From: Caloramator sp.
GTDB taxonomy: Bacteria; Bacillota; Clostridia; Clostridiales; Caloramatoraceae
Direction of reading: 5' to 3'
DNA: 33,222 nucleotides
Assembly (NCBI GenBank): GCA_026416875.1
Contig: JAOAEI010000011.1
Location: 1 to 33,222, forward strand
This document shows, piece after piece, positions 3,847-32,446 of this stretch. The notes beneath the pieces are model-generated. The model was not told the DNA's origin and made no database searches. It saw only the letters and a list, made by a program, of their open reading frames with translations. Numbering within the stretch: the first letter of the stretch is position 1; each line of letters opens with the position of its first letter. Both the position numbers and the translations under genes were made by a program.

Positions 3847-5503
3847 AAAAAAGATACACTCTTGCTTCGTAAGGTTTAAAGAGCATGTTTCTCTTTAATT
3901 CTTCTTCAGAATAGTTGCTAATTAAAAGCTTCATATCCTTTTCTAAAAGTTCCCTTGGAAGATTTATTTCTACTTCATCTTTTGAGAAATTCATTAAAAC
4001 TAAAAGATTTTGACCTTCAAAATGCCTTGTATAGGCAAAGATTTTTTCATCATCTTCAAATAAAAGATTTATGTCGCCGTAGACTATTACAGGATATTTC
4101 TTCCTAAGTTCAATTAATTTTTTATAGTAATAAAAAACGGAATTTTTATCCTCAAGGGCTTTTTTGACGTTTATCTCCTTGTAGTTTGGGTTAACCTTAA
4201 TCCAGGGCTTTCCAGTTGTAAACCCAGCGTTTTCACTGTCATCCCACTGCATTGGAGTCCTTGCGTTGTCCCTTCCCTTTTTATAGATTGCCTCTAAAAG
4301 CTTTTGAGGATCATGCCCCTTTTGAATCATTTCATTATACCAGTTTAATGTTTCAATGTCCCTATAGTCCTCTATTGAAGGGAATCTTACATTTGTCATT
4401 CCTATTTCTTCCCCTTGATAAATATAAGGCGTCCCCTGCCAAGTATGGACAAACGTTGCAAGAAGCTTTGCAGACTCTACCCTATACTCTTTATCATCCC
4501 CAAACCTTGAAACCATCCTCGGCTGATCGTGATTATTTAAGTAAACTGAATTCCATCCCTTTTCCTTTAACCCTTCATACCACTTTAGCATTATCCTTTT
4601 AAAATCCGTAAGCTTCCACGGCTTTACATCCCATTTATTCTTTCCTGAGTCTATATCCATTAGTTCAAACTGAAATATCATATTCAGCTCATTTCTGTCA
4701 TAATTCACATAAAGCCTTCCATCCTCAGGTGTAACCCCTGGAGTTTCACCGACAGTCATTATATCGTATTTTGATAGAACTTCCCTATTCATCTCCTGCA
4801 GATATTCATGAACCTTAGGTCCATTAGCGTAGTATTTAAACCCAATTAATCCCTCTTCATTCTCATCATCAGGGAGTCCTTCAACCTTTGAAATAAAGTT
4901 TATAACATCCATCCTAAATCCATCTATTCCCTTATCAAGCCACCACTTCATCATTTTGAATACTTCTTTTCTTACGTTTTCATTATCCCAATTAAGATCC
5001 GGTTGCTTTACTGCAAATAGATGAAGGTAGTATTCATCGGTTGTTTCATCATACTGCCATGCAGAACCTGAAAAGAAGGATGTCCAGTTGTTGGGAGGGT
5101 TATTACCTTTTCCTTTTCTCCATATGTAAAAATCCCTGTAGGGATTATCCTTTGATTTTCTTGATTCTATGAACCATATATGTTCATCGGAGGTATGATT
5201 TACAACAAGGTCCATGATAATTTTGATACCCCTTTTATGGGCCTCATCAAGGAGTCTATGAAAATCCTCCATAGTGCCAAACTCATCCATAATATCATAA
5301 TAATCGCTTATATCGTATCCATTATCGGCGTTTGGGGATTTGTATATTGGATTAAGCCATATAACATCCACACCAAGCTCCTTAAGGTAATCAAGTTTTT
5401 CAATTATCCCCTTTAAATCTCCAATTCCATCCCCATTTGAATCATAAAAACTCCTTGGATAAATTTGATAAACAACAGCTTCCTTCCACCATTTTCTTTC
5501 CAT
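3845..5503 (-). CDS. GH13 alpha-glucosidase, oligo-1,6-glucosidase type
   Basis: A 552-aa cytoplasmic glycoside hydrolase of family 13, by resemblance subfamily 31, releasing glucose from isomalto- or malto-oligosaccharides. There is no signal peptide. The conserved regions are DLVVNHTSD (98-106), GFRMDVINF with nucleophile Asp199, VGETPG with acid/base Glu253, and NNHDQPR with Asp326. The residue after the nucleophile is Val200; in characterised oligo-1,6-glucosidases Val here favours alpha-1,6 bonds, while Thr favours maltase activity, so isomaltase-type activity is inferred. The start ATG follows AAGGGGG. It lies 12 bp after the small membrane-protein gene and is probably cotranscribed with it. 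It could finish the degradation of branched products released by the secreted amylopullulanase encoded at the other end of the window. Confidence 0.92.
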   Translation of the reverse strand: MERKWWKEAVVYQIYPRSFYDSNGDGIGDLKGIIEKLDYLKELGVDVIWLNPIYKSPNADNGYDISDYYDIMDEFGTMEDFHRLLDEAHKRGIKIIMDLVVNHTSDEHIWFIESRKSKDNPYRDFYIWRKGKGNNPPNNWTSFFSGSAWQYDETTDEYYLHLFAVKQPDLNWDNENVRKEVFKMMKWWLDKGIDGFRMDVINFISKVEGLPDDENEEGLIGFKYYANGPKVHEYLQEMNREVLSKYDIMTVGETPGVTPEDGRLYVNYDRNELNMIFQFELMDIDSGKNKWDVKPWKLTDFKRIMLKWYEGLKEKGWNSVYLNNHDQPRMVSRFGDDKEYRVESAKLLATFVHTWQGTPYIYQGEEIGMTNVRFPSIEDYRDIETLNWYNEMIQKGHDPQKLLEAIYKKGRDNARTPMQWDDSENAGFTTGKPWIKVNPNYKEINVKKALEDKNSVFYYYKKLIELRKKYPVIVYGDINLLFEDDEKIFAYTRHFEGQNLLVLMNFSKDEVEINLPRELLEKDMKLLISNYSEEELKRNMLFKPYEARVYLF

Positions 5504-5515
5504 ATTAAGCCCCCT

Positions 5516-5698
5516 TTAATTGTCATTATTTTTATATTCCTTTTCACTTAAAACATCCCTTACAGCCCTTTTTATGCTCTCCTCCATGTTTATTAAGTTT
5601 TTTTCAATAGCACGTTTAACTGCTTGATAGATTACAAAATATAGGATTGCGATATTAATAAGAAAAATTATTAAAGATACTACTGGATTTAAAAACAT
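5516..5698 (-). CDS. Small single-span membrane protein, unknown function
   Basis: A 60-aa ORF not recognised as a known family. Residues 5-27 form one hydrophobic helix (VVSLIIFLINIAILYFVIYQ), followed by a charged amphipathic tail, AIEKNLINMEESIKRAVRDVL. An AAGGGG ribosome site lies about 9 nt before the ATG, and the gene ends 12 bp before the glucosidase start, so both probably share the promoter upstream. It may be a small regulator or scaffold at the membrane, but nothing in the sequence shows this. That it is a real gene is supported by the ribosome site, the tight spacing and the sensible topology. Confidence 0.6.
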   Translation of the reverse strand: MFLNPVVSLIIFLINIAILYFVIYQAVKRAIEKNLINMEESIKRAVRDVLSEKEYKNNDN

Positions 5699-5807: not shown

Positions 5808-5836
5808 TTGCTATTGCAGTTTTGCTTATATATAAT
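5808..5836 (+). promoter_or_regulatory. Sigma-A promoter of nadABC
   Basis: TTGCTA (-35, 5808-5813), a 17-bp spacer and a consensus TATAAT (5831-5836). The predicted start near 5843 leaves a leader of about 25 nt before nadA. I found no riboswitch here and no convincing NiaR box. Confidence 0.7.
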
Positions 5837-5866
5837 ATTGTATATACAGATGTAAAGGATGGTGTA

Positions 5867-6769
5867 ATGATGATAGAGGAAATCAAAAAACTTAAGGAAG
5901 AAAAGGATGCTCTAATCCTTGCCCATAACTATCAAAGGCCTGAAGTTATAGATATTGCCGATTTTGTTGGCGATTCCTTTTACCTTAGCCAGGTAGCAAA
6001 GGATTCAGATAAAAGCACAATAGTATTTTGCGGCGTTGACTTTATGGCTGAAAGTGCTAAAATTTTATCTCCCGAAAAGAAGATTTTACTTCCTGTAAAG
6101 GACGCAGGATGCCCTTTGGCTGAAATGGTGGATATCGATAAGTTAGAAAAATTTAAAAAGGAGCATTCAGATGCAACCTTTGTATGCTATATCAATACAA
6201 GTGCAGAGGTTAAGGCCCTTTGCGATGTTGTTGTAACATCATCAAATGCTGTAAAGATTATAAAAAGGATAGAAAATAAAAAGATAGTCTTTCTTCCCGA
6301 TAAAAACCTCGGTGAATTTGTAAAGGAACAGGTTCCAGAAAAGGATATAGTGCTTTGGACTGGTTTTTGTCCAACCCACCGAAAGATTTCTAAAGAGTAT
6401 ATACTATCGCTTAAGGAAGAAATTAAAGATTTAGTCATTTTAACCCATCCAGAATGCGAAAGGGATGTTAGGGAAATATCCGATTTTATAGGCAGCACCA
6501 AGGAGATAATAGACTATGCAACAAAGACCAACTTTAAAAACTACCTAATTGCAACTGAAGAAGGGGTAATTCATACTTTGAAAAAACTAAATCCAGATAA
6601 AAACTTCTATATCGCAGGCCTTACAGCAACCTGCCCTAACATGAAAAAAACAAAACTTATAGACGTATATGAAAGCCTTTTATATTCAAAATATGAAATC
6701 CATGTTGATAAAGAAATTGCAAAGGCAGCTAAAAGAGCCCTTGAAAATATGCTAATGCTTGCAGGGTGA
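5867..6769 (+). CDS. nadA: Quinolinate synthase A
   Basis: NadA condenses iminoaspartate (from NadB) with dihydroxyacetone phosphate to give quinolinate, using a [4Fe-4S] cluster. The ORF-track start (TTG at 5822) overlaps the -10 box; the real start is ATG 5867 (or 5870) behind AAAGGATGGTG. The product is about 300 aa, the usual length. Family signatures are LAHNYQRPEV near the N-terminus, GDSFYLSQVA, VFCGVDFMAESAK, the cysteine in FVCYINTSAEVKA, LPDKNLG, WTGFCPTH, and TATCPNMKK near the C-terminus. Cysteines for the cluster are therefore present. It is the first gene of nadA-nadB-nadC; its TGA is followed one base later by the nadB ATG pair, so the two are translationally linked. Confidence 0.96.
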   Translation: MMIEEIKKLKEEKDALILAHNYQRPEVIDIADFVGDSFYLSQVAKDSDKSTIVFCGVDFMAESAKILSPEKKILLPVKDAGCPLAEMVDIDKLEKFKKEHSDATFVCYINTSAEVKALCDVVVTSSNAVKIIKRIENKKIVFLPDKNLGEFVKEQVPEKDIVLWTGFCPTHRKISKEYILSLKEEIKDLVILTHPECERDVREISDFIGSTKEIIDYATKTNFKNYLIATEEGVIHTLKKLNPDKNFYIAGLTATCPNMKKTKLIDVYESLLYSKYEIHVDKEIAKAAKRALENMLMLAG

Positions 6770-6770
6770 T

Positions 6771-8066
6771 ATGATGATAAATTGTGATGTTTTAATAGTC
6801 GGAAGCGGTGTCGCTGGACTTTATGCAGCGTTAAATTTAAGAAGGGACCTTAATGTAATATTGGTTTCTAAAACTACTCTAAAGGAAACCAACACCTACC
6901 TTGCCCAGGGTGGTATTTCAACGGCAAAGGATGAGGAGGATATTGAAGCTTTCATCGAAGACACCCTAAGGGCTGGAAATTACAAGAATAATTTAGAGGC
7001 AGTGAGGGTTTTTGCAAAAGAGTCGATGGAAAATATAAAAAGGCTTATCGATTTTGGCGTGGAATTTGACAATATCGATGGAAGGCTTTTGTTTACAAAG
7101 GAGGGTGCCCACAGCACTAATAGGATAGTTCATGTTAAGGATTGGACCGGCAAAGCCGTTGCAAAAACCCTTATCAAAAATATATTAAAAAGAAAAAATA
7201 TAAAAGTTTATGAAAATACAAAGCTAATTGACATTTTATCTAAAGATAATAGGTGCCTTGGCGGGATATTTATTAGAAACGGAAAAAGAATAGATATCCA
7301 TTCAAAGGTTACAATCCTTGCAACCGGAGGAATTGGAGGCCTTTTTAAAAATTCAACAAATCAAAGGGTTTTAACTGGAGATGGACTTGCAATTGCCGTA
7401 AGACATGGTGTTAAAATAAAAGATATAGAGTTTATCCAGTTTCATCCCACTGCCTTTTATGAAGAAAAGGATGAAAGAAGGTTTTTGATATCGGAAAGCC
7501 TAAGGGGAGAAGGTGCAATCCTTTTAAACTACAAAGGTGAAAGATTTGTTGACGAACTTCTGCCAAGGGATGAGGTTTCTTTAAAAATATTAGAAGAAAT
7601 AAGAAGGTCAAATAAGCCCTATGTATTTTTAAGTGCAAGACACCTTAACAGCTCCTACTTAAGGGATAGATTTCCTAATATATACAACGAATGTTTGAAA
7701 AGGGGAGTAGATATAACTAAAGATTTAGTGCCTGTTGCACCTGCCCAGCATTATTTTATGGGTGGAATAGAGGTTGACCTTTTTTCAAAAACTTCAATGG
7801 AAAACCTTTATGCAGTAGGAGAAGTATCCTGCACAGGAGTCCACGGTGAAAACAGGCTTGCCAGCAACTCCCTTCTTGAGGGGCTTGTTTTTTCAAGGAG
7901 GGCTGCGGAGGATATAAATAAAAATATAGATAGCATTAGTCCTGCAAAGACGTATAAAAATGATTTAAATAATATTGAAGAATTGGAAAGGGAAAATAAA
8001 AGGCTTGTTATAAAAGAATTAAAAAAGAAAAGGTGGGATCTTAAGGATGAATTTATTGATTATTGA
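6771..8066 (+). CDS. nadB: L-aspartate oxidase, short form
   Basis: NadB is a cytoplasmic FAD enzyme oxidising L-aspartate to iminoaspartate for NadA; under anaerobic conditions fumarate can be the electron acceptor. The FAD-binding start CDVLIVGSGVAGLYAAL is clear, followed by TYLAQGGIST, ILATGGIGGLF, IQFHPTAFY, SLRGEGAIL and the C-terminal flavin motif VHGENRLASNSLLEG. The ATG at 6771 or 6774 is preferred over the ORF-track start, which lies inside nadA. At about 431 aa it is roughly 100 aa shorter than the Bacillus and E. coli enzymes; the missing part is the C-terminal helical region, while the catalytic core is complete. nadC starts inside its 3' end (20-bp overlap). Confidence 0.95.
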   Translation: MMINCDVLIVGSGVAGLYAALNLRRDLNVILVSKTTLKETNTYLAQGGISTAKDEEDIEAFIEDTLRAGNYKNNLEAVRVFAKESMENIKRLIDFGVEFDNIDGRLLFTKEGAHSTNRIVHVKDWTGKAVAKTLIKNILKRKNIKVYENTKLIDILSKDNRCLGGIFIRNGKRIDIHSKVTILATGGIGGLFKNSTNQRVLTGDGLAIAVRHGVKIKDIEFIQFHPTAFYEEKDERRFLISESLRGEGAILLNYKGERFVDELLPRDEVSLKILEEIRRSNKPYVFLSARHLNSSYLRDRFPNIYNECLKRGVDITKDLVPVAPAQHYFMGGIEVDLFSKTSMENLYAVGEVSCTGVHGENRLASNSLLEGLVFSRRAAEDINKNIDSISPAKTYKNDLNNIEELERENKRLVIKELKKKRWDLKDEFIDY

Positions 8067-8874
8067 TAGGCTTATTCAGGATGCCTTAAATGAAGATGTT
8101 ACCTACGAGGATATAACAACAGAGGCGATAATCCCTGATGATTTAGTATCCACAGCAAATCTTATTGCAAAGGAAAATGGAGTGTTAGCTGGGCTATTCA
8201 TCTTTAAAAGGGTTTTTGAACTTTTAGGAGAAGTTGAAATTAAAAGTTTTAAAAATGACGGAGATGAAGTTAAAAAGGGAGATATAATATGCACCCTCAA
8301 AGGGAAAGCAAAAAATATTTTAATAGGCGAAAGAACTGCCCTTAATTTTATCCAAAGGATGTCGGGAATTGCAACCCTTACACGGGAATTTGTTAAAAGG
8401 CTTGAAGGGACAAAGGCAGTTTTGCTTGATACAAGAAAGACAACGCCAAACCTTAGGATATTAGAAAAATACGCAACCAGAATGGGCGGTGCTGTAAACC
8501 ACAGATTTAACCTTTCCGATGGAATTTTAATTAAGGATAACCACATTAAAGCTGCAGGAAATATAACAAGGGCTGTTGAGCTTGTTAGAAAAAGATACTC
8601 TAATTTAAAAAAGATCGAAGTTGAAACGGAAAATTTAGATATGGTAAGGGAAGCCCTTGAGTGCAATGTTGATATAATAATGCTTGACAATATGAATCTT
8701 GAGCTTATTAAAGAAGCGGTAAATATTATAAATGGCAAAGCTTTAATAGAGGTTTCCGGAAATGTTAACCTTAACACAATAGGCGACATCGCAAAATTAG
8801 GCGTTGACTTTATTTCAACTGGTGCAATAACCCATTCATATAAGTCGCTTGATTTGAGTTTGAGGATTATATAA
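8047..8874 (+). CDS. nadC: Nicotinate-nucleotide pyrophosphorylase (quinolinate phosphoribosyltransferase)
   Basis: NadC converts quinolinate and PRPP to nicotinate mononucleotide, the last step of this de novo branch. The 275-aa length is typical. Motifs are GERTALNFIQRMSGIAT, the PRPP/quinolinate-binding LLDTRKTTPNLR, GGAVNHRFNLSDGILIKDNH, and the TIM-barrel ends VDIIMLDNM and SGNVNLNTI. Its ATG lies inside nadB, with AAAGGTGGGAT in nadB serving as ribosome site, so translation is coupled. The operon ends just after it in a hairpin shared with the convergent sspH gene. Confidence 0.96.
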   Translation: MNLLIIDRLIQDALNEDVTYEDITTEAIIPDDLVSTANLIAKENGVLAGLFIFKRVFELLGEVEIKSFKNDGDEVKKGDIICTLKGKAKNILIGERTALNFIQRMSGIATLTREFVKRLEGTKAVLLDTRKTTPNLRILEKYATRMGGAVNHRFNLSDGILIKDNHIKAAGNITRAVELVRKRYSNLKKIEVETENLDMVREALECNVDIIMLDNMNLELIKEAVNIINGKALIEVSGNVNLNTIGDIAKLGVDFISTGAITHSYKSLDLSLRII

Positions 8875-9959: not shown

Positions 9960-9981
9960 TACAATGATCCTTTTTAGGCTT

Positions 9982-10080
9982 TCCACATCCCTACGCTGGT
10001 ATCATCCAGATCAGGTTCAAAGGGTCTAAGGTTTCATTGGACCTTACTCTCAGATGGCCTTTTCCATCTCCCCTTGTGGA
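9982..10080 (-). ncRNA. TPP riboswitch (THI element)
   Basis: Read on the minus strand, the aptamer has the P1 arms TCCACA / TGTGGA, the conserved CTGAGA of the pyrimidine-sensing arm, and the conserved GAACCTGATCTGGATGATAC plus CAGCGTAGGGA pyrophosphate-sensing arm. It lies between the promoter at about 10103-10131 and the terminator just before thiD. Binding of thiamine pyrophosphate should switch thiD off by termination. Confidence 0.96.
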
Positions 10081-10102
10081 TTAATATTTAGTTTATATTT
10101 TT

Positions 10103-17414: not shown

Positions 17415-17432
17415 AAAAAAAGCATATTTAGC

Positions 17433-17507
17433 CTTACTCATAGTCGGGTAGTTTACGGCCACCCGGTAGAGACTCCAAGGCCATATTCCTTGGATTATAT
17501 GAGTAGG
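17433..17507 (-). ncRNA. Guanine riboswitch (purine class)
   Basis: Read on the minus strand, the aptamer shows P1 (ACTCATA / TATGAGT), the conserved TATAATCC... junction, the two loop motifs that kiss, and the J3/1 segment GACTATG. The discriminating base in GACTATG is C, the guanine/hypoxanthine-specific form (adenine riboswitches have T there). It precedes guaB-guaA, so excess guanine shuts down GMP synthesis. Confidence 0.96.
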
Positions 17508-17534
17508 TTGTGTCTAAATTTATCGTTTTTTAGT

Positions 17535-18007: not shown

Positions 18008-19162
18008 CTAAAGGTTTGTTTTTCTTACTAAATTATAAACATCCTTTAAAGGGACTCCTTTTTCCCTTGCAATCCTTTTTAAATCCTCATATTCAGGAGA
18101 TACGTTTACTATCACGCCATCGTATTTTGAAATTTTGAAATTAACATCGCCAAGTTCCGTCTCTACCCTTTTGATTTCCCTTTGAAGTTCATATCTTTTT
18201 ATTTTAAATTTTCTAATTCCTATTGTCGTTGTTTCTTTAAAAAGCACCTCAACTATGGATTTTTCCTTATTTTCATGAACAAGAACTGATATTACGATTC
18301 CGGGCCTATTTTTTTTCATATAAACAGGAGTAAGATAAACATCAAGGGCCCCCTTTTCAAACAGTTTATCCATAACATATCCGTAAAACTGAGGATTCAT
18401 ATCATCTATTGTGGTTTCAATTAAAACAACTTCTTCTTTATCTTCCTCACCAAGCACAACCCTTAATACATTTGGCTTTTCAGTATTTTTCTTGCCGCAG
18501 CCGTAGCCAACTGCCTTCACCTTCATGTTAATTCCTTCAACAAATTCTGTGCATAGTCCCTTTAATATAGCTGCACCTGTTGGGGTTGTAAGCTCAAACT
18601 TTCTTTCGTCAGAATAAATTGGAACATCCTTTAAAATATTTATGGTCGCTGGAGCTGGAACTGGTAAAATGCCGTGCTGGCATTTTACAAATCCGCTTCC
18701 TGTATTTACATAAGAGGAAACTATTTTGTCCGGCTTTAAATAGTCTATGCATACTGCAACACTGACTATATCGATTATTGAATCCACCGCTCCAACCTCA
18801 TGGAAATGGACCTCATCTATACTCTTTCCGTGGACCTTTGCCTCAGCCTCTGCAATTATATTGAAGATCCTCTTTGCAATATTCTTTGCTCCTTCTGAAA
18901 TTGCACTTTTATCTATAATGTTTATAATATCCTTTAAATTCCTTTCATGACGATGAATATTTTCCTCCTTTAAAAAAACATAAAAGTCTGTTCCCTCAAT
19001 GCCGTTTTTATTACTCTTTTTTATTTCTATCTCATATTCTTCATCTATGTTTAAACTTTTTAAATTTTCAATTAAATAATCCTTAGGAACTCCAATATCT
19101 AAAAGGGCGCCTACTGCCATATCACCACTAATCCCTGAAAAACAGTCAAAATAAAGTATCAT
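18008..19162 (-). CDS. larC: Nickel-pincer cofactor insertion protein LarC (fused form)
   Basis: LarC is the CTP-dependent cyclometallase that inserts nickel into the pyridinium dithiocarboxylate made by LarB and LarE. The 384-aa protein starts MILYFDCFSGISGDMAVGALL, typical of the family, and carries DEVHFHEVGAVDSIIDIV, NTGSGFVKCQHGILPVP, ELTTPTGAAIL, and in the C-terminal part VVLIETTIDDMNPQFYGY and KKNRPGIVISVL. In Lactobacillus plantarum the two halves, larC1 and larC2, are joined by frameshifting; here they are one uninterrupted frame. The ATG overlaps the larB stop (ATGA), so translation is coupled. A His-rich stretch (HRHERN) could bind nickel. Confidence 0.94.
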   Translation of the reverse strand: MILYFDCFSGISGDMAVGALLDIGVPKDYLIENLKSLNIDEEYEIEIKKSNKNGIEGTDFYVFLKEENIHRHERNLKDIINIIDKSAISEGAKNIAKRIFNIIAEAEAKVHGKSIDEVHFHEVGAVDSIIDIVSVAVCIDYLKPDKIVSSYVNTGSGFVKCQHGILPVPAPATINILKDVPIYSDERKFELTTPTGAAILKGLCTEFVEGINMKVKAVGYGCGKKNTEKPNVLRVVLGEEDKEEVVLIETTIDDMNPQFYGYVMDKLFEKGALDVYLTPVYMKKNRPGIVISVLVHENKEKSIVEVLFKETTTIGIRKFKIKRYELQREIKRVETELGDVNFKISKYDGVIVNVSPEYEDLKRIAREKGVPLKDVYNLVRKTNL

Positions 19163-19926
19163 TTTACCACTCCGTTTCTGAAAAATCCTTTGTTTATCAT
19201 AGAAGCGATATATCCAGCACCAAATCCGTTGTCGATATTAACCACTGAAATCCCTGCGGCACAGGAGTTTAGCATAGTTAAAAGAGCCGAAAGGCCTTTA
19301 AAATTTGCCCCATATCCTACGCTTGTTGGAACTGCAATGACAGGAACATCAACAAGTCCGGCAAGGACAGAAGGAAGGGCCCCCTCCATTCCTGCAACTG
19401 CTACAATACAGCTAGAACCCTTAATTTTATCCATATTTGAAAATAACCTATGTATTCCTGCAACCCCAACATCAAAAATCCTTTCAACATTATTTCCAAA
19501 GGCCTCAAGGGTTACTGCTGCCTCCTCTGCAACGGGGATATCAGCCGTTCCCCCTGTAACAACAGCAACCTTTCCAACCTTTTCAACTTCTTTAGGGTTC
19601 ACTATAAGTATCCTTGCAAGTTCATGATATACCATGTTTTCTGAAATATCCTTTACCTTCTCATAAACCTCCCTTGACATCCTTGTTGCAAGGACATTGG
19701 CATTTCTGTTTTTCATGTCTAAAAGTATTGCCCTTAAATGATTTATATCCTTACCTTCGGTAAAAACAACCTCTGGATAGCCAACCCTCAAGGCTCTGTG
19801 GTAATCAAGCTTTGCAAAGTTTAAATCCTTAAAGGGAACATCCTTGAATGCATCAAGGGCCTTATCAATATCAAGCTCACCTTCTTTAACTTTAGTTAAT
19901 ATTTCTTTTAATGTGCTCCTATCCAT
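19159..19926 (-). CDS. larB: Nickel-pincer cofactor biosynthesis carboxylase LarB
   Basis: LarB carboxylates and hydrolyses nicotinic acid adenine dinucleotide to pyridinium-3,5-biscarboxylic acid mononucleotide, the first step of the cofactor route. The 255-aa protein has an N-terminal helical part (LKEILTKVKEGELDIDKAL) and a C-terminal PurE-like domain with VVTGGTADIPVAEEAA, GVAGIHRLF, VAGMEGALPSVLAGL, VIAVPTSVGYG and NIDNGFGAG. The ATG at 19926 is chosen over the GTG one codon upstream because GGGGGT lies 6 nt before it; it shares one base with the larE TGA stop (TGATG). The substrate NaAD comes from the NAD pathway, of which nadABC is in this window. Confidence 0.95.
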   Translation of the reverse strand: MDRSTLKEILTKVKEGELDIDKALDAFKDVPFKDLNFAKLDYHRALRVGYPEVVFTEGKDINHLRAILLDMKNRNANVLATRMSREVYEKVKDISENMVYHELARILIVNPKEVEKVGKVAVVTGGTADIPVAEEAAVTLEAFGNNVERIFDVGVAGIHRLFSNMDKIKGSSCIVAVAGMEGALPSVLAGLVDVPVIAVPTSVGYGANFKGLSALLTMLNSCAAGISVVNIDNGFGAGYIASMINKGFFRNGVVK

Positions 19927-20735
19927 CACTTTACCCCCATATTTAAGCTTCCTGTTTTATAGCCGGTAAGGTCTAAGGAGACAAATTTAAAACCTATCTC
20001 CTTAAGCCTTTTTTCAGCCTCATCTATAAGCTCCATATTAAAAAACTTTTCAAAATCATCCCTTGGAATCTCTATCCTTGCAATATCCCCATGACATCTT
20101 ACCCTTACATTTTTAAATCCTTTGTTTATAAGAAAAATTTCGGCATCGTCGATCATCTTTAGTTTTATTTTGTTTATCTCATCCCCATAGGGAATCCTTG
20201 TTGCAAGGCAGGCAAAGGAAGGCTTATCATAAAATTTTAGGCCCATTTCCTTTGCTAAAAATCTTATATCCTCCTTTGTAAGGCCTGCCATAAGTAATGG
20301 ACTTTTAATTTTTAGCTCTTCTATTGCCCTAAGCCCTGGTCTATAATCCTTTAAATCATCGGCATTGGTTCCATCAACTACATAGTTTATTCCAACTTCG
20401 TTAGCAAAGGATATTAGCTTTGAAAAAACTGTCTTTTTACAGATATAGCATCTATCTATTGGGTTATTTTTAAAACCTACAACATCCCTTAAAGGGTCAA
20501 ACTCAATCTGTCCATGTTCAACGCCTAATTCCTTAGCAAACTCCCTTGCCTCATTAATCTCCCATGAAGGGTATATGTAGGATACTGCTGTTGCTGCTAC
20601 AGCTCTATTTCCTAAAACATCCTTTGAAACCTTTAATAAAAAGGAACTATCTATTCCCCCAGATAAAGCAACCAAGACGCTTTCCATATCTGCTAATATA
20701 TTTTTAAGTTCATCAAGTTTTTTAAAGCTATCCAT
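19926..20735 (-). CDS. larE: Sulfur transferase LarE for nickel-pincer cofactor
   Basis: LarE adenylates the biscarboxylate and adds sulfur to give the dithio-pincer precursor. The start is ATG 20735 behind AAAAGGAGG; the ORF-track extension overlaps a terminator. The 269-aa protein has the PP-loop ALSGGIDSS (23-31), DGTNADDL, RPGLRAI and the C-terminal domain. Cysteines 96 and 99 (DRCYICKK) and Cys176 (SFACLATR) are present. In L. plantarum LarE only Cys176 serves, as a sacrificial sulfur donor; the three-Cys arrangement is that of the [4Fe-4S]-type LarE that can be catalytic, which is the inferred type here. It is the first gene of larE-larB-larC; no larA is in the window. Confidence 0.95.
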   Translation of the reverse strand: MDSFKKLDELKNILADMESVLVALSGGIDSSFLLKVSKDVLGNRAVAATAVSYIYPSWEINEAREFAKELGVEHGQIEFDPLRDVVGFKNNPIDRCYICKKTVFSKLISFANEVGINYVVDGTNADDLKDYRPGLRAIEELKIKSPLLMAGLTKEDIRFLAKEMGLKFYDKPSFACLATRIPYGDEINKIKLKMIDDAEIFLINKGFKNVRVRCHGDIARIEIPRDDFEKFFNMELIDEAEKRLKEIGFKFVSLDLTGYKTGSLNMGVK

Positions 20736-20758
20736 AAGTAACCTCCTTTTATAATAAA

Positions 20759-20774
20759 AAGCCCTATTGGGCTT
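20759..20774 (-). terminator. Terminator between the Uma2 gene and larE
   Basis: On the RNA strand AAGCCC-AATA-GGGCTT followed by TTTATTAT, beginning in the Uma2 stop codon. It makes the Uma2 gene a separate unit or attenuates into the lar genes, whose ribosome site follows within 20 bp. Confidence 0.75.
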
Positions 20775-21324
20775 AAACAAATATTTCTGTCAGGTTAATC
20801 TTTAAATCGCTAAAGATGGCTGATTCTACAAAATCATCCTTAGAATATGTTCCATATTCTATATATACCCCATCCTTTAAAACAAAAACTTGGATAGTCT
20901 TGCCCTTTGAACTTGCAATCCAATATTCTTCAACGCCAAACCTTGAGTATAAATCCATCTTTTTTATATAATCATAGGATGCATTTGATGGGGATAAAAC
21001 TTCAACGATAAGCTTTGGAATTCCTTTATAATTTTCTTCTGTTATTTTGCTTTTGTCACAAATCACCGTAATATCGGGTTGAACAACGTGTTTTTCTCCT
21101 GAATTTTCATTTTCAAATATAACATCATAAGGAGCAACAAAGGGTTCGCACTCTTTTTCTTTAAAATACTCTAAAAACTTTGCAAAAATCTTTCCGAGCA
21201 CTCTTTGATGTTCGGTAGATGGTGATGCCCAAAGATATATTTGTCCATCTATAAATTCAGCCCATTTATCCTTAGTAATCTCTAAAAATTCCTCATAAGA
21301 ATATCTTCTTAGCTCTGGTAGCAT
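20773..21324 (-). CDS. Uma2-family (PD-(D/E)XK-like) protein
   Basis: A 183-aa protein of the Uma2/DUF820 family, with a restriction-endonuclease-like fold. The pattern is clear: SYEEFLEI at the start, EFIDGQIYLWASPSTEHQRV, VVQPDITVICD, the core IPKLIVEVLSPSN, DLYSRFGVEEYWI and a short beta tail. The Asp of QPDITV and the Glu of IVEVLSPS fit the PD-ExK active-site positions. Biological function in bacteria is largely unknown; members spread as scattered paralogs. The start ATG follows GGGGAT. It is separated from larE by a terminator, so a role in cofactor synthesis is not implied. Confidence 0.85.
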   Translation of the reverse strand: MLPELRRYSYEEFLEITKDKWAEFIDGQIYLWASPSTEHQRVLGKIFAKFLEYFKEKECEPFVAPYDVIFENENSGEKHVVQPDITVICDKSKITEENYKGIPKLIVEVLSPSNASYDYIKKMDLYSRFGVEEYWIASSKGKTIQVFVLKDGVYIEYGTYSKDDFVESAIFSDLKINLTEIFV

Positions 21325-21438
21325 ATAACCATCCCCTAAAACATATTCATACTTTTATTATAATTTAATTGATAATTTTTACAACTAAAAAGAAAAAGTA
21401 TATTTTGTGAAGTATGTTAAAAATTTATCAATAATATA

Positions 21439-21467
21439 TTGATTTCTTAATCACAAAGATATATAAT
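21439..21467 (+). promoter_or_regulatory. Sigma-A promoter of adhE
   Basis: TTGATT (21439-21444), a 17-bp spacer and consensus TATAAT (21462-21467). The predicted start is near 21474 and leaves a leader of about 150 nt. The rest of the 300-bp gap 21325-21625 is AT-rich with no ORF; it holds this promoter and two Rex-like sites. Confidence 0.75.
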
Positions 21468-21471
21468 TATA

Positions 21472-21489
21472 TTGTGAAATAAATAACAA
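21472..21489 (+). promoter_or_regulatory. Candidate Rex operator 1 at the adhE transcription start
   Basis: TTGTGAAATAAATAACAA matches 12 of 14 defined bases of the Rex palindrome TTGTTAA-N4-TTAACAA. It covers the predicted start site. Rex releases DNA at high NADH/NAD+, which fits an alcohol-forming, NADH-consuming enzyme. Confidence 0.65.
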
Positions 21490-21592
21490 ACAGCAAAAAT
21501 ATTAGCAAAAGAGTGTTCCCAAACATCATGTAAGCTTGTCATAACAGCAAAGTTTTATTAATTTAATAGAATGTTATTTTTTATAATGTTAT

Positions 21593-21610
21593 TTGTTAAA
21601 TTATTGTCAA
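21593..21610 (+). promoter_or_regulatory. Candidate Rex operator 2 in the adhE leader
   Basis: TTGTTAAATTATTGTCAA has a perfect left half-site and 5 of 7 in the right half-site. It ends 15 bp before the adhE ATG and could act with operator 1, about 120 bp upstream, by looping or as a roadblock. Confidence 0.5.
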
Positions 21611-21625
21611 AGTGAGGTGTTTTGT

Positions 21626-24211
21626 ATGTTAATTACCAACAACGACGAATTGCTGCAAAAGATTAGTCAAGTAAGAAGGGCTCAAGAAATATATTCAACC
21701 TTCCCACAGGAAAAGGTTGACGAGATTTTTAGAGCAGCAGCAATGGCAGCAAATGAAGCTAGAATTTATCTTGCAAAAATGGCAGTTGAAGAAACTGGAA
21801 TGGGAATTGTAGAAGATAAAGTTATTAAAAATCATTTTGCATCGGAGTATATATATAACAAATACAAGGATGAAAAGACCTGCGGAGTTATCGAAAGGGA
21901 TGAATCCTCTGGCATCGTTAAAATAGCAGAACCAATTGGAGTTATCGCTGCAATCGTTCCTACCACAAATCCAACGTCAACAGCAATATTTAAAGCCCTA
22001 CTTGCCCTTAAAACAAGAAACGGTATAATATTCTCACCCCACCCAAGGGCTAAAAATTCAACTATAGAGGCTGCAAAAATTATTCTAAAGGCTGCAGTAA
22101 AGGCAGGAGCCCCTGAAAATATTATAGCTTGGATAGATGAACCTTCTGTTGAACTTTCACAGCTTCTTATGAGCCAGTGCGACTTTATCCTTGCAACTGG
22201 TGGTCCTGGAATGGTAAAGGCAGCTTATTCATCAGGAAAGCCAGCAATAGGCGTTGGTTCTGGAAATACACCTGCAATTATAGATGAAACAGCCCATATA
22301 AAGATGGCTGTAAACTCAATTATCCTATCAAAAAGCTTTGATAATGGAGTTATATGTGCATCTGAACAGGCTGTTATAGTTTTGGATGAGGTTTATGATG
22401 AGGTTAAAAGGGAATTTATAGAAAGAGGCTCCTACTTCCTAAAGGAGGATGAAATAGATAAAGTTAGAAAAATAATACTTGTAAACGGCTCAATAAACGC
22501 AAAAATAGTTGGACAAAGTCCCCAAAGGATTGCTGAGATGGCAGGAATTACAATCCCTGAAAATACAAGAATAATAATTGGAGAAGTTGATAAGGTTGGA
22601 ATTTCCGAACCCTTCTCCTTTGAAAAGCTATCACCAATCCTTGCAATGTATAGGGCAAAATCCTTTGACGATGCCGTAAACCTTGCCGTTGAACTTGTAA
22701 AGCATGGAGGATTTGGCCACACATCCGTTCTTTACACAGATACAATAAAATGCAAAGATAGAGTAGAAAAATTCAGCGCTGCAATGAAAACAGGAAGAAT
22801 AATAATAAACATGCCATCCTCCCAAGGTGCAATAGGAGATATATACAACTTCAGATTAGAGCCTTCTCTAACTCTTGGCTGCGGTTCCTGGGGTGGAAAC
22901 TCAGTTTCTGAAAACGTAGGAGTTAAACATCTTTTAAACATAAAAAACGTAGCTGAGAGGAGAGAAAATATGCTCTGGTTTAGGGTTCCTGAAAAGATTT
23001 ACTTTAAATACGGCAGCCTTTCAACAGCCCTTAAGGAATTAAGGGATATGGGAAAGAAAAAGGCCTTCATAGTTACAGATAAGGTGCTATTTGACCTTGG
23101 ATTTACAAACAAAGTCACTGATATATTAGATGAGCTCGGAATTCAGCACAGCGTATTCTTTGAGGTTGAACCAGACCCAACATTACATTGTGCTAAAAAG
23201 GGTGCTGAGCTTATGAAATCCTTCTCCCCTGATGTAATAATAGCCCTTGGTGGAGGCTCACCAATGGATGCTGCAAAGATTATGTGGGTTATGTATGAAC
23301 ATCCAGAGGTTAGATTTGAGGACCTTGCCTTAAGATTTATGGACATTAGAAAAAGAATATATAGATTCCCTGAATTAGGCAAAAAAGCGATGATGGTTGC
23401 TATCCCAACAACAGCAGGAACAGGTTCTGAAGTTACTCCATTTGCCGTTATTACAGATGAAAAAACAGGAATTAAATATCCTCTTGCAGACTATGAATTA
23501 ACTCCTGATATGGCCATAGTCGATCCTGAGCTTATGATGAATATGCCAAAGGGACTTACTGCTGCATCAGGAATAGATGCTCTAACCCATGCAATTGAAG
23601 CCTATGTTTCCGTCCTTGCATCTGAATTTACTAATGGACTTGCCCTTGAGGCGATAAGATTAATATTTAAGTATTTACCATCAGCATATAACGAAGGTGC
23701 TAAAAATCAAAAGGCAAGGGAAAAGATGGCTTATGCTTCTACAATAGCAGGAATGGCCTTTGCTAATGCCTTCCTTGGAATATGCCATTCAATGGCCCAT
23801 AAGCTTGGTGCTGCCTTCAACATCCCCCATGGCGTTGCAAATGGACTTTTAATTAGCGAGGTTATAAGATTTAATGCAGTGGATAATCCAAGAAAACAAA
23901 CTGCCTTCCCGCAATACAAATACCCAAATATAAAATGGAGATATGCACAGATTGCCGACTATCTAAGACTTGGCGGAAATAATGAAGATGATAAGGTTGA
24001 ACTCTTGATAAAGGCAATTGAAGATTTAAAAGAAAAGGTAGGTATTCCAAAATCCATTAAAGAAGCTGGGGTATCAGAAAAGAAATTCTATGCAAAGCTT
24101 GACGAGCTTGCAGAACAGGCCTTTGATGACCAGTGCACTGGAACTAACCCAAGATATCCACTAATCAGCGAGATAAAGGAAATTTATATAAGGGCATTTG
24201 AAGGAAGATAA
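21626..24211 (+). CDS. adhE: Bifunctional aldehyde-alcohol dehydrogenase
   Basis: AdhE reduces acetyl-CoA to acetaldehyde and then to ethanol, oxidising two NADH. The start ATG 21626 follows GTGAGGTG; the TTG of the ORF track lies inside a Rex-like site. The 861-aa protein has both halves: the CoA-acylating aldehyde dehydrogenase (VPTTNPTST near 112, catalytic Cys244 in NGVICASEQ) and, after a linker near 440-460, the iron alcohol dehydrogenase (GGGSPMDAAK, TTAGTGSEVTPFAV, DALTHAIEAY, CHSMAHKLGAAFNIPHG with metal-binding His). The linker SVSENVGVKHLLNIK and the order of domains are as in filament-forming spirosome AdhE. It is monocistronic, closed by a shared hairpin with mntH. Confidence 0.97.
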   Translation: MLITNNDELLQKISQVRRAQEIYSTFPQEKVDEIFRAAAMAANEARIYLAKMAVEETGMGIVEDKVIKNHFASEYIYNKYKDEKTCGVIERDESSGIVKIAEPIGVIAAIVPTTNPTSTAIFKALLALKTRNGIIFSPHPRAKNSTIEAAKIILKAAVKAGAPENIIAWIDEPSVELSQLLMSQCDFILATGGPGMVKAAYSSGKPAIGVGSGNTPAIIDETAHIKMAVNSIILSKSFDNGVICASEQAVIVLDEVYDEVKREFIERGSYFLKEDEIDKVRKIILVNGSINAKIVGQSPQRIAEMAGITIPENTRIIIGEVDKVGISEPFSFEKLSPILAMYRAKSFDDAVNLAVELVKHGGFGHTSVLYTDTIKCKDRVEKFSAAMKTGRIIINMPSSQGAIGDIYNFRLEPSLTLGCGSWGGNSVSENVGVKHLLNIKNVAERRENMLWFRVPEKIYFKYGSLSTALKELRDMGKKKAFIVTDKVLFDLGFTNKVTDILDELGIQHSVFFEVEPDPTLHCAKKGAELMKSFSPDVIIALGGGSPMDAAKIMWVMYEHPEVRFEDLALRFMDIRKRIYRFPELGKKAMMVAIPTTAGTGSEVTPFAVITDEKTGIKYPLADYELTPDMAIVDPELMMNMPKGLTAASGIDALTHAIEAYVSVLASEFTNGLALEAIRLIFKYLPSAYNEGAKNQKAREKMAYASTIAGMAFANAFLGICHSMAHKLGAAFNIPHGVANGLLISEVIRFNAVDNPRKQTAFPQYKYPNIKWRYAQIADYLRLGGNNEDDKVELLIKAIEDLKEKVGIPKSIKEAGVSEKKFYAKLDELAEQAFDDQCTGTNPRYPLISEIKEIYIRAFEGR

Positions 24212-27026: not shown

Positions 27027-27058
27027 TAAAATAAGCCAGGCAAAAGCCTGGCTATTTT
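27027..27058 (-). terminator. Terminator of the amylopullulanase gene
   Basis: AAAATAGCCAGGC-TTTT-GCCTGGCTTATTTT on the RNA strand: a GC-rich 8-bp core stem extended by A-T pairs with one bulge, spanning the stop codon. Confidence 0.85.
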
Positions 27059-30000
27059 ACATCAAATTCTAAAACATTTGATAATGGTTTCATATTGTCT
27101 AAATCATCCCATACAAATGCTCTTAGCTTATAGCTTCCCTTTTCGGGCAGTTTAATTCTTGCAATTAACTCAACAGTTTTATTAGGTTCTAAAGTATTTG
27201 TCACTGCAACAAGGCTTACCAAAGTATTCTTGTCATCAAACAAACCAACAATTAAACTTGCTTTTTGAGCTACATTAGAGATATTTTGTGCTTTGACTTT
27301 TATAACAGCATCTGAACCTAATTTAAAACTAATATTAGGAGTAATGTTTTCAACTATCACTGTTTCTTCAATTGTTTTATCAGTTAAAATAAAGCTTCCA
27401 AATCTATCCGTTTCAAATTCTAAAGCGCCACTTTCGAAAATAGAAGGTAATTTAATAAATTTATTGTTTTCTTTATCAAAATAATATACAAATACATTAT
27501 TAAACTTTTTAGTATCAAGCATTGTTTTTAACTTTAGCTTTGCATTAACTAATTTGTCTACATTTGATATGAGTTTAAATGTAAATATTTTCTTTCCAAT
27601 ATCATTTAATTTCACGTCACTTGAATGTTCAATATCAACTTCAAAAGAATTTTCAACGTTTCTTAATATGTCTTTTGCATTATAGCTTATTTCAAAATCC
27701 TTAATTTTACTTGTTATAATTATATTCTTAAGTGTAGCAGCATATAATGCTTCTCTTGAAATACTACTTGGAGCTTCAAAAACTGAACCTTCATTTGCTT
27801 TAAGCATCGCTTTTATTAATTCCTGTTCATCCTTGTCTTCCTTATCCATTGCTCTATTTTCTACTATAAAGCTTGAATCATAAGCAGGTTTTAAGCTTTC
27901 TACATCAATCGCTATTTCCTTTATTTCATTTACCAATATTGCTCCTGATTTTTCATTTAAATTTAAGTTAACCCTCCCATTTGAAATTACAGCTTCTTGC
28001 CCTGAAATTAAATCTATGAATTTTGTTCCATTTTCATATGGAAGGTTTAAGCTTATATTCTTTGACGCCCCCCTGTTTATGATTATGATTGCTTTATCTG
28101 ATCCCTTTTCTCTCATATATGCTAAAACATCTTCATTGACTGATATTGGTCTAATTTCACCAGTTCTTAATACTTCATAACTATTTCTTATGTTAATGAG
28201 TTTTGCATACCATTCAACAAGCTCCCTATCGCCCTTACCCCATGGGAAGGTTCTTCTGTTATCAGGGTCATCTGCACCAAATTGTCCTGCCTCATCTCCA
28301 TAATATATAACCGGTGCTCCAGGATATGTCATCTGCATCAATGCTGCAAGCTTTAGAAGTTTCTTTGCATTTTCGCTTGGAGGATTAGCTATATCCTTTA
28401 CGCTCTTTTGATATCCATCAAAGGCAGATATTGCCCTTTGGGTATCGTGGGAATCGATTAAGTTAAACATCGCATAAAAAGCTTCCCTTGGATATTGTTC
28501 CCTTATAAGCTCTAGCATTTCCATAGTCTTTTTAGCATCCTTTTGTCCTGTTAAGAAATCCAACAGAGCTCCTCTAAATCTATAATTCATAACAGAATCA
28601 TACATATCTCCTAAAAGATATCTTGTAGCATCATCCCAAATCTCACCTATTATTACATTATCCCCTTCTTCCTTTACAGCTCTTCTGAAATTAACCCATG
28701 TTTCATCTGAAACCTCATTTGCAACATCGAGTCTCCAGCCGCTAGCACCTTTTCTTAACCAATACCTTGTATGCGAATCTTCGCCATCAACAACTTCTTC
28801 AGCCCAAGATTTAACTTGATATTCTGAACCATTTAGTGCCTGTATCACAGGCATAGAGTCAAATCCCCACCATCCTTCATAGTAATAGCGCTCGGTTGCT
28901 TTCCCAACATTTACCTTCCTGTTTTCAATCTTAAACCAATCCTTATAATGGAAATCAGTAATTCCAATGCTTCTAAAGTATTCATGAACTCTATTTTCAG
29001 CCTCCTGCTGACTTAATCCTTCAAGGTTCATCAAATCGTAAACCCTTGACCAATATTGATAAGCTCCAAGGGGTTTCCCCTTTGTCATGTATTTGCCATA
29101 TCTATCAAAATAAATTGAGTCATCAGAAACATGATTTAATACTCCATCAAGTATTATTTTCATTCCTCTCTTTTTAGCTTCATTAGCAAGTCTTACAAAA
29201 TCATCCATAGAGCCAAGTAGTGGATCAAGTTCCTTGTAATCAGTTGCATCATATCTATGGTTTGATATGGATTTAGAAATAGGATTAAAGTAGATTACAT
29301 TTACTCCAAGGGCCTTTAGATAATCTAGCCTCTTTATAACTCCTTCTATATCTCCACCATACATTTCGTTACACCATTCTTTATCTCCCCTTGTTCCTTT
29401 ATAGTCTTCTCTATCCTCCAAAGATGGAACTTCAGGGATTGCATACCAATCATCATAAAATTCGTAAAGAACACTTCCCCTTGCAAATTTTTGTGAATAG
29501 TCGTTTTTCTTATCTCCGTTGTAAAATCTATCTGGGAATATGTGATATATCACAGCGTTTTTCATCCAATCAGGAGTTTTAAAATCAGGAAGATATACGT
29601 TAAGCCCATAGGACAAAACCTTTCCTAAATCATCGGCTTTACCCTTTCCATATAGTCCATCGTCGTCGCCATAGGCCTTTACTTCAGAACCATTTGAGAT
29701 TATAAAATAATATTGATACATTCCCTTTTCACTTGGTGTATAGGTAGTGTTCCAAATAAAGTTATCTTCTACAATAGTTTTTGTCATATCTATGCTTTCT
29801 TTACCATTTGGAGTTAATACAACAAGTTTTACTTGTGAAACATCCTGTCCCGTTCTTATGTTGAATTTTACATTTTCTCCAACTTTAACAGCACCAAAGG
29901 GCTCCTTGAAGCTTAAATCTCTTGAATCATAATAAATTTTACTTATATCTATATTCCTTTGGGAAGCGTTGTTGAATATCAGACCTGTTACATAATCATA

Positions 30001-32400
30001 GCTAAATGTAACTTGTTTGTCTTCATTTAATACAATCTCCGGATACTCGTATTCTTGATCTCCTATAACTACCTTTACTCCTTTATATGTTCCAGCTTTT
30101 AGATTTACAGAAGCTGAATATATTCCCGTAAGGGTTAGATCTTTCATAACATATTCCTTATCAAGTCCTATTAACTTAGGCCTATCCTCCCCAAACAGAG
30201 GAGCATATTTTGTAGAATCAGTTATTATATGGCTTATATCTGAATAATAGAAGGTTATATCCTGCTGCTTTATAACCTGCATCTGAATGTTAGCCCCATC
30301 CCTTGCTCCATCTTTACCATAGTTTTCATTCCAGGAACCCATAGCAACTTTATATTCATATATTCCAGGTGGAACATTTTTTATTGTAAATTTATAAATG
30401 CCATCTCCTATATGCTTCATTCTTGTAATCTGTGATGATGGATCCCAATCCTTTGCACCGACAAGATGCTGAATTGTTCCAACTAAAACTACTAACCTTC
30501 CCCCAGGAACTTCTGAAAGTTCCCTTACAACTTGGACTTCCTTTAAAACCTCAACATTTGAAGTTTTATCCTTTGCAGATATCTTGATCTTTATTGAATC
30601 TACTCCCTCAGGAAGTTGTCCTAATGTTAAAATTCCATCTCCACCTATTGAAGCTATTTGGTTTGGATTTTCTACTAAGAACCATTCTACATTTTGATAA
30701 TCCTCTAATAAACCGTCCCCTTTAATAGCCTTTGCAAGAAGCTTTATTGATGTGTTTTGTTCCACCTCAAAGGGCACATCAATATCAACAAGCCCTGGAA
30801 CGTATAAAACAGAATTATCAAAGGGTGGGTTGCCTTCCTTTCTTGAGTTTAATGGATCCGTCATCCAATTTCCATCAACGATAAATTTATAAAGATACTT
30901 ACCAGGTTTTAATTGTAGGCTAATGGACCAAATATTGCCTTCTCCTTTAGTCATTAAAATTTTTCCGTCTCCCCAGTTGGTCATAGAACCAGCAAGATAG
31001 ACTTCCTTTGCTTTTCCAGTTAAATCCAAATAATTGAATGTAACCTTATTACCCTCTATTACCGGACTACTTACCTTTGCAGGAACAATAAGTTTAGAAT
31101 TTTTTCCGCCGTATCCATCATCAACCACATTAGGATTTGAAGGGTCACTTACCCAAGATTCACTTCCATTTTCGGTTACAACATATTTATATTGATATTC
31201 ACCAGGATTTAGGCTTAATGCTAATGTCCAAATTCCATTTTCATTTATCATAGGATTTGCATTTTTATCCCAATTATTAAAGCTTCCTGCAACTGAAACC
31301 TTCTCTGCCCTATCGTTTTTATATCTAAATATAACCTTTCCATCTAATGTAATTTCTGGACTAACTATTGGATTTTCAAATCCTAAAATTTCAGCAACTT
31401 TATTGTAATCATTTAAGCTGTCATAAAGAATTGCATTCTTAACATCTGCAATAAATATGACATATTTACCCCCGCTTGGGATGTTTAAAATTTTATTTCC
31501 GCTTCTTGGTATTCCACCGCTATTCCATGAATAGTTTTCACATGCCTTGTATTCATATCTTCCTTCATTTAAAAAACTTCTATAAATAAATTTCCCATCA
31601 CCATCTAAATAGTCAAATTCATACCCCTTTGCCGACGCATCCCAAGTATTATTTCCTCTTACTTCTCCTATAATCGAAACAACTATATTTATCCACGGAT
31701 TATTAATTGAGTCAATACAAATATCAAGATAAGGATTTGCAAGAAAAGTTACATCTAACTCAGACGGAATTTGAACTTCTCTATTTTGTCCTACTTCACC
31801 ATTAGACCACTTATGATCATAAGCTACTTTATATTCAAGCTTAGTGTTTTGAGGCTTTGGGGAAAGTTTAAAGGTGCCCTTAAAAAATCCACCACCAATA
31901 TAAATTAAATCAAAATTAGCATCACCTGGATTCCAAAATTGACCGTTTTCAGTAAAATTATTAAGATTTCCAACTAAAGTTGCTGAAAGTTTAAACTCCT
32001 GTGGTTCATTTACTGAATCGATAATCCTCTTGTTTTTATTATCAAATCTAAATAAAACCCTTTTAGGTTCAGTTAAATTAAGCTGTCTATTTTGTGAAGG
32101 ATAGTTTTCATTCCAGCTTCTGTTAAGGGCTACTTTGTATTCATAGATTCCAGCTTCTTTAAAATCCACAACCGCCTCATAAATTCCATTCCCAAAGGGT
32201 TTCATAAAGTTATTCTTGTCATCTGGCTTCCAATTGTTTTCTACTTTAGTTCCATCTAAAGTAAAGTTTCCAACCAGTGCAACTACATCATCTGCCCTTG
32301 ATGAAGCCTTTACCAAGGAAGTTAAATTAAATTTAGGAAAGAAATTAATTAAGAATAAGAAGATAAGGATTATGCTTATCCTTTGTTTAAATCTTTTCAT
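27052..32400 (-). CDS. Secreted multidomain amylopullulanase (GH13)
   Basis: A 1782-aa extracellular enzyme degrading starch and pullulan (alpha-1,4 and alpha-1,6 bonds). ATG 32400 follows AAAAGGGGGG; a signal peptide (KRFKQR plus IILIFLFLINFF, cut probably after LVKA) starts the protein. Approximate order: three X25-type starch-binding modules (40-335, each with YEYK and a late DS-N), two CBM48-like modules (347-535, AGSFNNWD and AGSMTNWG), an Ig-like module (536-625), a fourth X25 module (630-725), an N-domain, the GH13 barrel (940-1410), then C-terminal beta modules. Catalytic motifs are DGVLNH, GWRLDVANE (nucleophile Asp near 1225), IIGEIWDD (Glu near 1253) and DSHDTQR (Asp near 1319). 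No SLH, LPxTG or CBM20 part is seen, so it is released rather than anchored. Whether it cleaves both bond types needs assay. Confidence 0.93.
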   Translation of the reverse strand: MKRFKQRISIILIFLFLINFFPKFNLTSLVKASSRADDVVALVGNFTLDGTKVENNWKPDDKNNFMKPFGNGIYEAVVDFKEAGIYEYKVALNRSWNENYPSQNRQLNLTEPKRVLFRFDNKNKRIIDSVNEPQEFKLSATLVGNLNNFTENGQFWNPGDANFDLIYIGGGFFKGTFKLSPKPQNTKLEYKVAYDHKWSNGEVGQNREVQIPSELDVTFLANPYLDICIDSINNPWINIVVSIIGEVRGNNTWDASAKGYEFDYLDGDGKFIYRSFLNEGRYEYKACENYSWNSGGIPRSGNKILNIPSGGKYVIFIADVKNAILYDSLNDYNKVAEILGFENPIVSPEITLDGKVIFRYKNDRAEKVSVAGSFNNWDKNANPMINENGIWTLALSLNPGEYQYKYVVTENGSESWVSDPSNPNVVDDGYGGKNSKLIVPAKVSSPVIEGNKVTFNYLDLTGKAKEVYLAGSMTNWGDGKILMTKGEGNIWSISLQLKPGKYLYKFIVDGNWMTDPLNSRKEGNPPFDNSVLYVPGLVDIDVPFEVEQNTSIKLLAKAIKGDGLLEDYQNVEWFLVENPNQIASIGGDGILTLGQLPEGVDSIKIKISAKDKTSNVEVLKEVQVVRELSEVPGGRLVVLVGTIQHLVGAKDWDPSSQITRMKHIGDGIYKFTIKNVPPGIYEYKVAMGSWNENYGKDGARDGANIQMQVIKQQDITFYYSDISHIITDSTKYAPLFGEDRPKLIGLDKEYVMKDLTLTGIYSASVNLKAGTYKGVKVVIGDQEYEYPEIVLNEDKQVTFSYDYVTGLIFNNASQRNIDISKIYYDSRDLSFKEPFGAVKVGENVKFNIRTGQDVSQVKLVVLTPNGKESIDMTKTIVEDNFIWNTTYTPSEKGMYQYYFIISNGSEVKAYGDDDGLYGKGKADDLGKVLSYGLNVYLPDFKTPDWMKNAVIYHIFPDRFYNGDKKNDYSQKFARGSVLYEFYDDWYAIPEVPSLEDREDYKGTRGDKEWCNEMYGGDIEGVIKRLDYLKALGVNVIYFNPISKSISNHRYDATDYKELDPLLGSMDDFVRLANEAKKRGMKIILDGVLNHVSDDSIYFDRYGKYMTKGKPLGAYQYWSRVYDLMNLEGLSQQEAENRVHEYFRSIGITDFHYKDWFKIENRKVNVGKATERYYYEGWWGFDSMPVIQALNGSEYQVKSWAEEVVDGEDSHTRYWLRKGASGWRLDVANEVSDETWVNFRRAVKEEGDNVIIGEIWDDATRYLLGDMYDSVMNYRFRGALLDFLTGQKDAKKTMEMLELIREQYPREAFYAMFNLIDSHDTQRAISAFDGYQKSVKDIANPPSENAKKLLKLAALMQMTYPGAPVIYYGDEAGQFGADDPDNRRTFPWGKGDRELVEWYAKLINIRNSYEVLRTGEIRPISVNEDVLAYMREKGSDKAIIIINRGASKNISLNLPYENGTKFIDLISGQEAVISNGRVNLNLNEKSGAILVNEIKEIAIDVESLKPAYDSSFIVENRAMDKEDKDEQELIKAMLKANEGSVFEAPSSISREALYAATLKNIIITSKIKDFEISYNAKDILRNVENSFEVDIEHSSDVKLNDIGKKIFTFKLISNVDKLVNAKLKLKTMLDTKKFNNVFVYYFDKENNKFIKLPSIFESGALEFETDRFGSFILTDKTIEETVIVENITPNISFKLGSDAVIKVKAQNISNVAQKASLIVGLFDDKNTLVSLVAVTNTLEPNKTVELIARIKLPEKGSYKLRAFVWDDLDNMKPLSNVLEFDVK

Positions 32401-32422
32401 ATAATCCCCCCCTTTTAAATTT

Positions 32423-32438
32423 ATGCAAACGTATGCAT
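32423..32438 (-). promoter_or_regulatory. LacI/MalR-like operator of the amylopullulanase gene
   Basis: ATGCAAACGTATGCAT is a 16-bp palindrome with a central CG and one mismatched pair, close to the GCAAACGTTTGC core used by MalR-type LacI-family repressors of maltose/starch genes. It lies just after the predicted transcription start. It fits the CcpA cre consensus less well (three mismatches). Confidence 0.65.
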
Positions 32439-32446
32439 CTAACATG

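Follow-up and report, generated by a model that had tools for sequence, protein, structure and literature searches.

Conserved Rex-like sites at the adhE promoter of a Caloramator species

The 33,222-nucleotide (33-kb) stretch of Caloramator sp. DNA analyzed here (the window) carries an adhE gene, and the region upstream of it raises the question of whether ethanol formation in this organism is controlled by the regulator Rex and, if so, through how many sites. A first-pass annotation had placed two Rex-like operators before adhE, one of near-consensus form over the predicted transcription start and a second about 120 bp downstream, 15 bp before the ATG, and had suggested that the pair would allow tight, NADH-dependent control. 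Both operators were borne out, and their coordinates and distances were right. The sites, a promoter-like sequence, a rex gene in the genome, and conservation of the arrangement are all present. The pair is probably a trio, with one further site that had been overlooked.

Rex-like sites and promoter upstream of adhE

The adhE gene (21626 to 24211, forward strand, as are all features in this section) encodes a bifunctional acetaldehyde/alcohol dehydrogenase of 861 amino acids with 85 to 88% identity to its closest full-length family orthologues. Its Pfam domains (Aldedh, Fe-ADH, and ADH_Fe_C) make it an NADH-linked fermentation and redox gene, as expected of a Rex target. Within the 301-bp intergenic region 5′ of the gene, promoter prediction and family alignment place a −35 box, TTGATT, at 21439 to 21444 and, after a 17-bp spacer, a −10 box, TATAAT, at 21462 to 21467; these assignments were automatic, and in G012, G013, and G014 the program picked hexamers other than the aligned ones. 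The main candidate operator, O1 (TTGTGAAATAAATAACAA, 21472 to 21489), has a single mismatch to the consensus TTGTKAANNNNTTMACAA, begins 4 bp past the TATAAT, and covers the predicted +1 at about 21474. The second site, O2 (TTGTTAAATTATTGTCAA, 21593 to 21610), has two mismatches and lies in the leader, 121 bp downstream of O1 and at about +120 to +137 from the predicted start; its last base is separated from the ATG (21626) by 15 bp. Relative to that ATG, O1 is at −154 and O2 at −33. Between O2 and the start codon is a Shine-Dalgarno sequence read from the DNA, GAGGTG (21614 to 21619), which is invariant in the family alignment. The third candidate, OU (ATGTTAAAAATTTATCAA, 21414 to 21431), stands directly 5′ of the −35 box. 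Compared with the 18-bp inverted repeat TTGTKAA-N4-TTMACAA, O1 deviates at one position and O2 and OU at two each. A sigma-54/AdhR-type adh promoter was also considered for this region and rejected, since neither strand of 21325 to 21625 contains GG-N10-GC.

We scanned the whole window for TTGTKAANNNNTTMACAA, counting mismatches. O1 was the best match, and three of the four sites with at most two mismatches lie upstream of adhE, the other being at 7342. In 20,000 dinucleotide shuffles of the adhE intergenic region, a site with at most one mismatch arose in 0.6% of cases and at least three sites with at most two mismatches in 0.005% (about 5e-5), and the two occurred jointly in none. O2 alone would be expected in the leader about once in thirty shuffles (P about 0.03). 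In a genome-wide motif scan, of the kind that the first-pass annotation had proposed, a loose pattern (at most one mismatch) gave 22 strand hits versus 22 for the reversed control, with no enrichment. Many further single-genome matches to the loose pattern were intragenic and were put down to chance. Because the loose motif is not enriched across the genome, the argument for Rex is drawn from position, clustering, and conservation, and not from the motif by itself.

Conservation in the family and comparison with known systems

Sequences 5′ of adhE from ten genomes of the same family were aligned with O1 as the anchor; O1 was conserved in all ten. The only long invariant blocks near the promoter were TATTG of the −35 region, at a fixed distance from O1, TA-AAT of the −10 region, with its end exactly 4 bp from O1, and O1 itself (invariant letters TTGT-AA...TAACA); most remaining positions drift. 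The exact form TTGTGAAATAAATAACAA, off-consensus position included, is shared by G000, G002, G003, G014, and G015, and a search of 17 family genomes with the pattern TTGTGAAWWWAATAACAA returned six matches, all 5′ of adhE, with none for the control. In every one of the ten aligned genomes, another TGTTA/TAACA-type palindrome lies shortly 5′ of the ribosome binding site; it is located at −31 to −33 in seven, and the three genus-g7 genomes have it at −45 to −50. This palindrome has three mismatches in the Caloramator group and is not significant there on its own (P 0.13 to 0.20). Its right half is degenerate in the present species (TGTCAA) and in G003 (TATCAA); judged by its letters, O2 is the weaker site in the present species. 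The position of the third site varies by genus: G000 and G003 have it 5′ of the −35 box, and four genomes of genus g3 have it within the leader, at about −95. The counterpart of OU in the congener G003 (TTGTTAAAATTTTATCAA, one mismatch) occupies the same place, at −211, and none was found upstream of adhE in the congener G002.

A wider collection extends the pattern. A Rex site with at most two mismatches lies within 350 bp at 46 of the 77 named adhE loci drawn from it, versus 6 for the reversed control; at least two such sites occur in 24 of the 77 and at least three in 7, and two control patterns gave zero in both cases. It is this conservation, rather than the motif alone, that carries the claim of Rex sites.

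The closest published layout is that of Thermoanaerobacterium saccharolyticum adhE, where Rex sites are predicted at −150 (TTGTTAAATGAATAACAA) and −31 (TTGTTAATAAATTAACAC) from the start codon, where deletion of rex raises adhE expression, and whose authors tie the two sites to stronger control (PMC5886521). The positions found here (−154 and −33) and the spacing (121 versus 119 bp) are alike, whereas the left half of O1 is TTGTGA, O2 is more degenerate, and a third candidate lies 5′ of the −35 box. The present case is a further, well-conserved example of that layout with an extra candidate site, and since two sites have already been published for T. saccharolyticum, the arrangement is real but ordinary. 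In Staphylococcus aureus, the Rex sites of ldh1 and adhE are 18-bp inverted repeats (TTGTGAAW4TTCACAA) that overlap promoters and transcription starts (PMC2883068, PMC3544828), and ldh1 has two of them, with its start inside the proximal one (PMC3544828). The Caloramator promoter resembles ldh1 in having two sites with one over the (here predicted) start; however, the second ldh1 site is further upstream, while here it is in the leader beside the ribosome binding site.

The rex gene, other candidate targets, and the surrounding DNA

The first-pass annotation had named the lack of a rex gene as a ground against its reading. The genome encodes a single intact rex (contig C261), so this objection falls. 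The predicted protein of 218 amino acids has a Rex DNA-binding domain (E = 1.6e-22), and the solved structures closest to it, matching along its whole length, are Rex proteins, headed by 3wg9 (E = 9.6e-100), which we take to be the Rex protein of Thermoanaerobacter ethanolicus. The half-sites and spacing upstream of adhE are the same as in the T. ethanolicus Rex (RSP) motif, ATTGTTANNNNNNTAACAAT, as quoted in PMC5886521. A rex gene is found in 59 of 60 relatives, every checked family member among them, and rex and adhE are direct neighbors on a Ruminococcus albus plasmid and in G054.

Two further genes are likely Rex targets, as judged from their upstream sequences. A candidate site with two mismatches is located shortly 5′ of rex itself, in the same place in three congeners, and reads TTGTTTATAATTTAACAC in G000 and G003. 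The ferredoxin gene has a Rex-like site with one mismatch just after a TATAAT in G000, G001, and G003 and a weaker one with three mismatches in G002 (four genomes of the genus compared); the site of this operon is approximately 36 to 50 bp before the gene (L166 to L169). The gene after ferredoxin in G000, judged by eye, looks like an aldehyde:ferredoxin oxidoreductase. Separately, a perfect Rex consensus, TTGTTAATGTTTTCACAA, occurs in the same genome as the adhE locus at 4373 to 4390 of contig C201 (L003, 1501 to 1518), about 50 bp 5′ of an apparent nucleotide-sugar dehydrogenase gene. That enzyme is NAD-linked; to our knowledge, it is not usually among the listed Rex targets.

The rest of the window holds several other features. 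A purine riboswitch (17421 to 17522, reverse strand; Rfam RF00167, 94 bits) precedes guaB (IMP dehydrogenase) and guaA, and a TPP riboswitch is present at 9971 to 10084 (reverse strand; RF00059, 81 bits). Adjacent larE-like (PP-loop), larB-like (AIR-carboxylase-like), and larC-like (nickel insertion) genes occupy 18008 to 20780 (reverse strand) and adjoin a Uma2-family gene, divergent from adhE; larE, larB, and larC form the nickel-pincer cofactor pathway of lactate racemase. At 5822 to 8874 (forward strand), nadA precedes a probable nadB (encoding an FAD protein) and one more gene, in what is probably an NAD synthesis operon, and the consensus scan found upstream of nadA only a noise-level Rex-like match at 5590 (three mismatches). 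A multidomain pullulanase/alpha-amylase of 1,797 amino acids, containing three X25 stretches and modules of the CBM48 type, is encoded at 27052 to 32445 (reverse strand).

Alternative readings and proposed mechanism

The sites could instead serve a regulator of the CRP/FNR family, given that TGTGA-N6-TCACA has the same spacing as a Rex site, that O1 carries TGTGA as its left half, and that one clear CRP-family protein is encoded in the genome (L150, about 222 amino acids); the S. aureus sites were themselves first described with a similar consensus, TGTGA-N6-TCACA (PMC2883068). However, O1 has TAACA on its right side, and the left halves of O2 and OU are of the TGTTA type, so that both halves of TGTGA-N6-TCACA or TTGAT-N4-ATCAA are found in none of them. 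The TGTTA/TAACA type, to which O2, OU, and the extra sites of the relatives belong, is accepted by Rex and would not be expected for a TGTGA-specific protein. A CRP-only pattern, moreover, finds 12 of the 77 named adhE loci versus 27 by the Rex pattern (at most one mismatch). We therefore consider a CRP/FNR-type regulator very unlikely.

With two mismatches, one degenerate half, and a P of about 0.03 in the present leader, O2 (and OU with it) may be a chance AT-rich look-alike that leaves O1 as the sole working Rex operator, but a palindrome at the O2 position recurs in 10 of 10 family members, several of them cleaner, as in G002 (TAGTTAAAATATTAACAA, P 0.0007), and prediction also puts a site at −31 before T. 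saccharolyticum adhE (PMC5886521). A single operator is accordingly unlikely in our estimate, with some weight left to it. The place of O2 in the transcribed leader, adjoining the ribosome binding site, would also suit an mRNA hairpin that controls translation, yet the leader folds no better than its shuffles (z = +1.15), no Rfam family matches it, and the half-sites keep the letters TGTTA/TAACA across species, as for protein-DNA binding; such a hairpin is most improbable.

The adhE promoter is thus very probably controlled by Rex, with O1 blocking the start, O2 and OU as auxiliary sites, and NADH as the releasing signal. Rex binding, the response to NADH, and the role of each site are inferred from the arrangement and from the known systems; S. 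aureus Rex binding is favored by NAD+ and weakened by NADH (PMC2883068). When NAD+ dominates, a Rex dimer would sit on O1, and because O1 covers the predicted start, like the proximal site of S. aureus ldh1, bound Rex should prevent initiation by RNA polymerase. Rex bound at O2, which lies in the leader immediately 5′ of the ribosome binding site, would strengthen repression, with O2 serving as a weaker, secondary operator or as a downstream roadblock, and could hinder elongation or raise the local occupancy of Rex; OU, 5′ of the −35 box, would probably add to repression as well. A rise in NADH would then cause Rex to leave, AdhE to be made, and NADH to be re-oxidized through ethanol formation. 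The tight control and NADH dependence that the first-pass annotation attached to O1 and O2 are likewise predictions.

A more elaborate possibility is that OU, O1, and O2 form a three-operator promoter whose adhE output is graded across NADH/NAD+ ratios rather than set by a single switch, with the weaker O2 as a roadblock to elongating polymerase or as a site bound cooperatively with O1; we regard this graded version as doubtful. DNA looping between O1 and O2 was rejected, as the helical phase is not conserved. Across the family the two sites are between 118 and 142 bp apart, or 11.2 to 13.5 helical turns, which makes a fixed rigid loop unlikely.

The Rex-site layout described for Thermoanaerobacterium adhE extends to the Clostridiales family that includes Caloramator, in which one operator is locked to the −10 box and another lies just 5′ of the ribosome binding site. 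No established idea is altered by this extension, and the layout helps in predicting and engineering ethanol formation.
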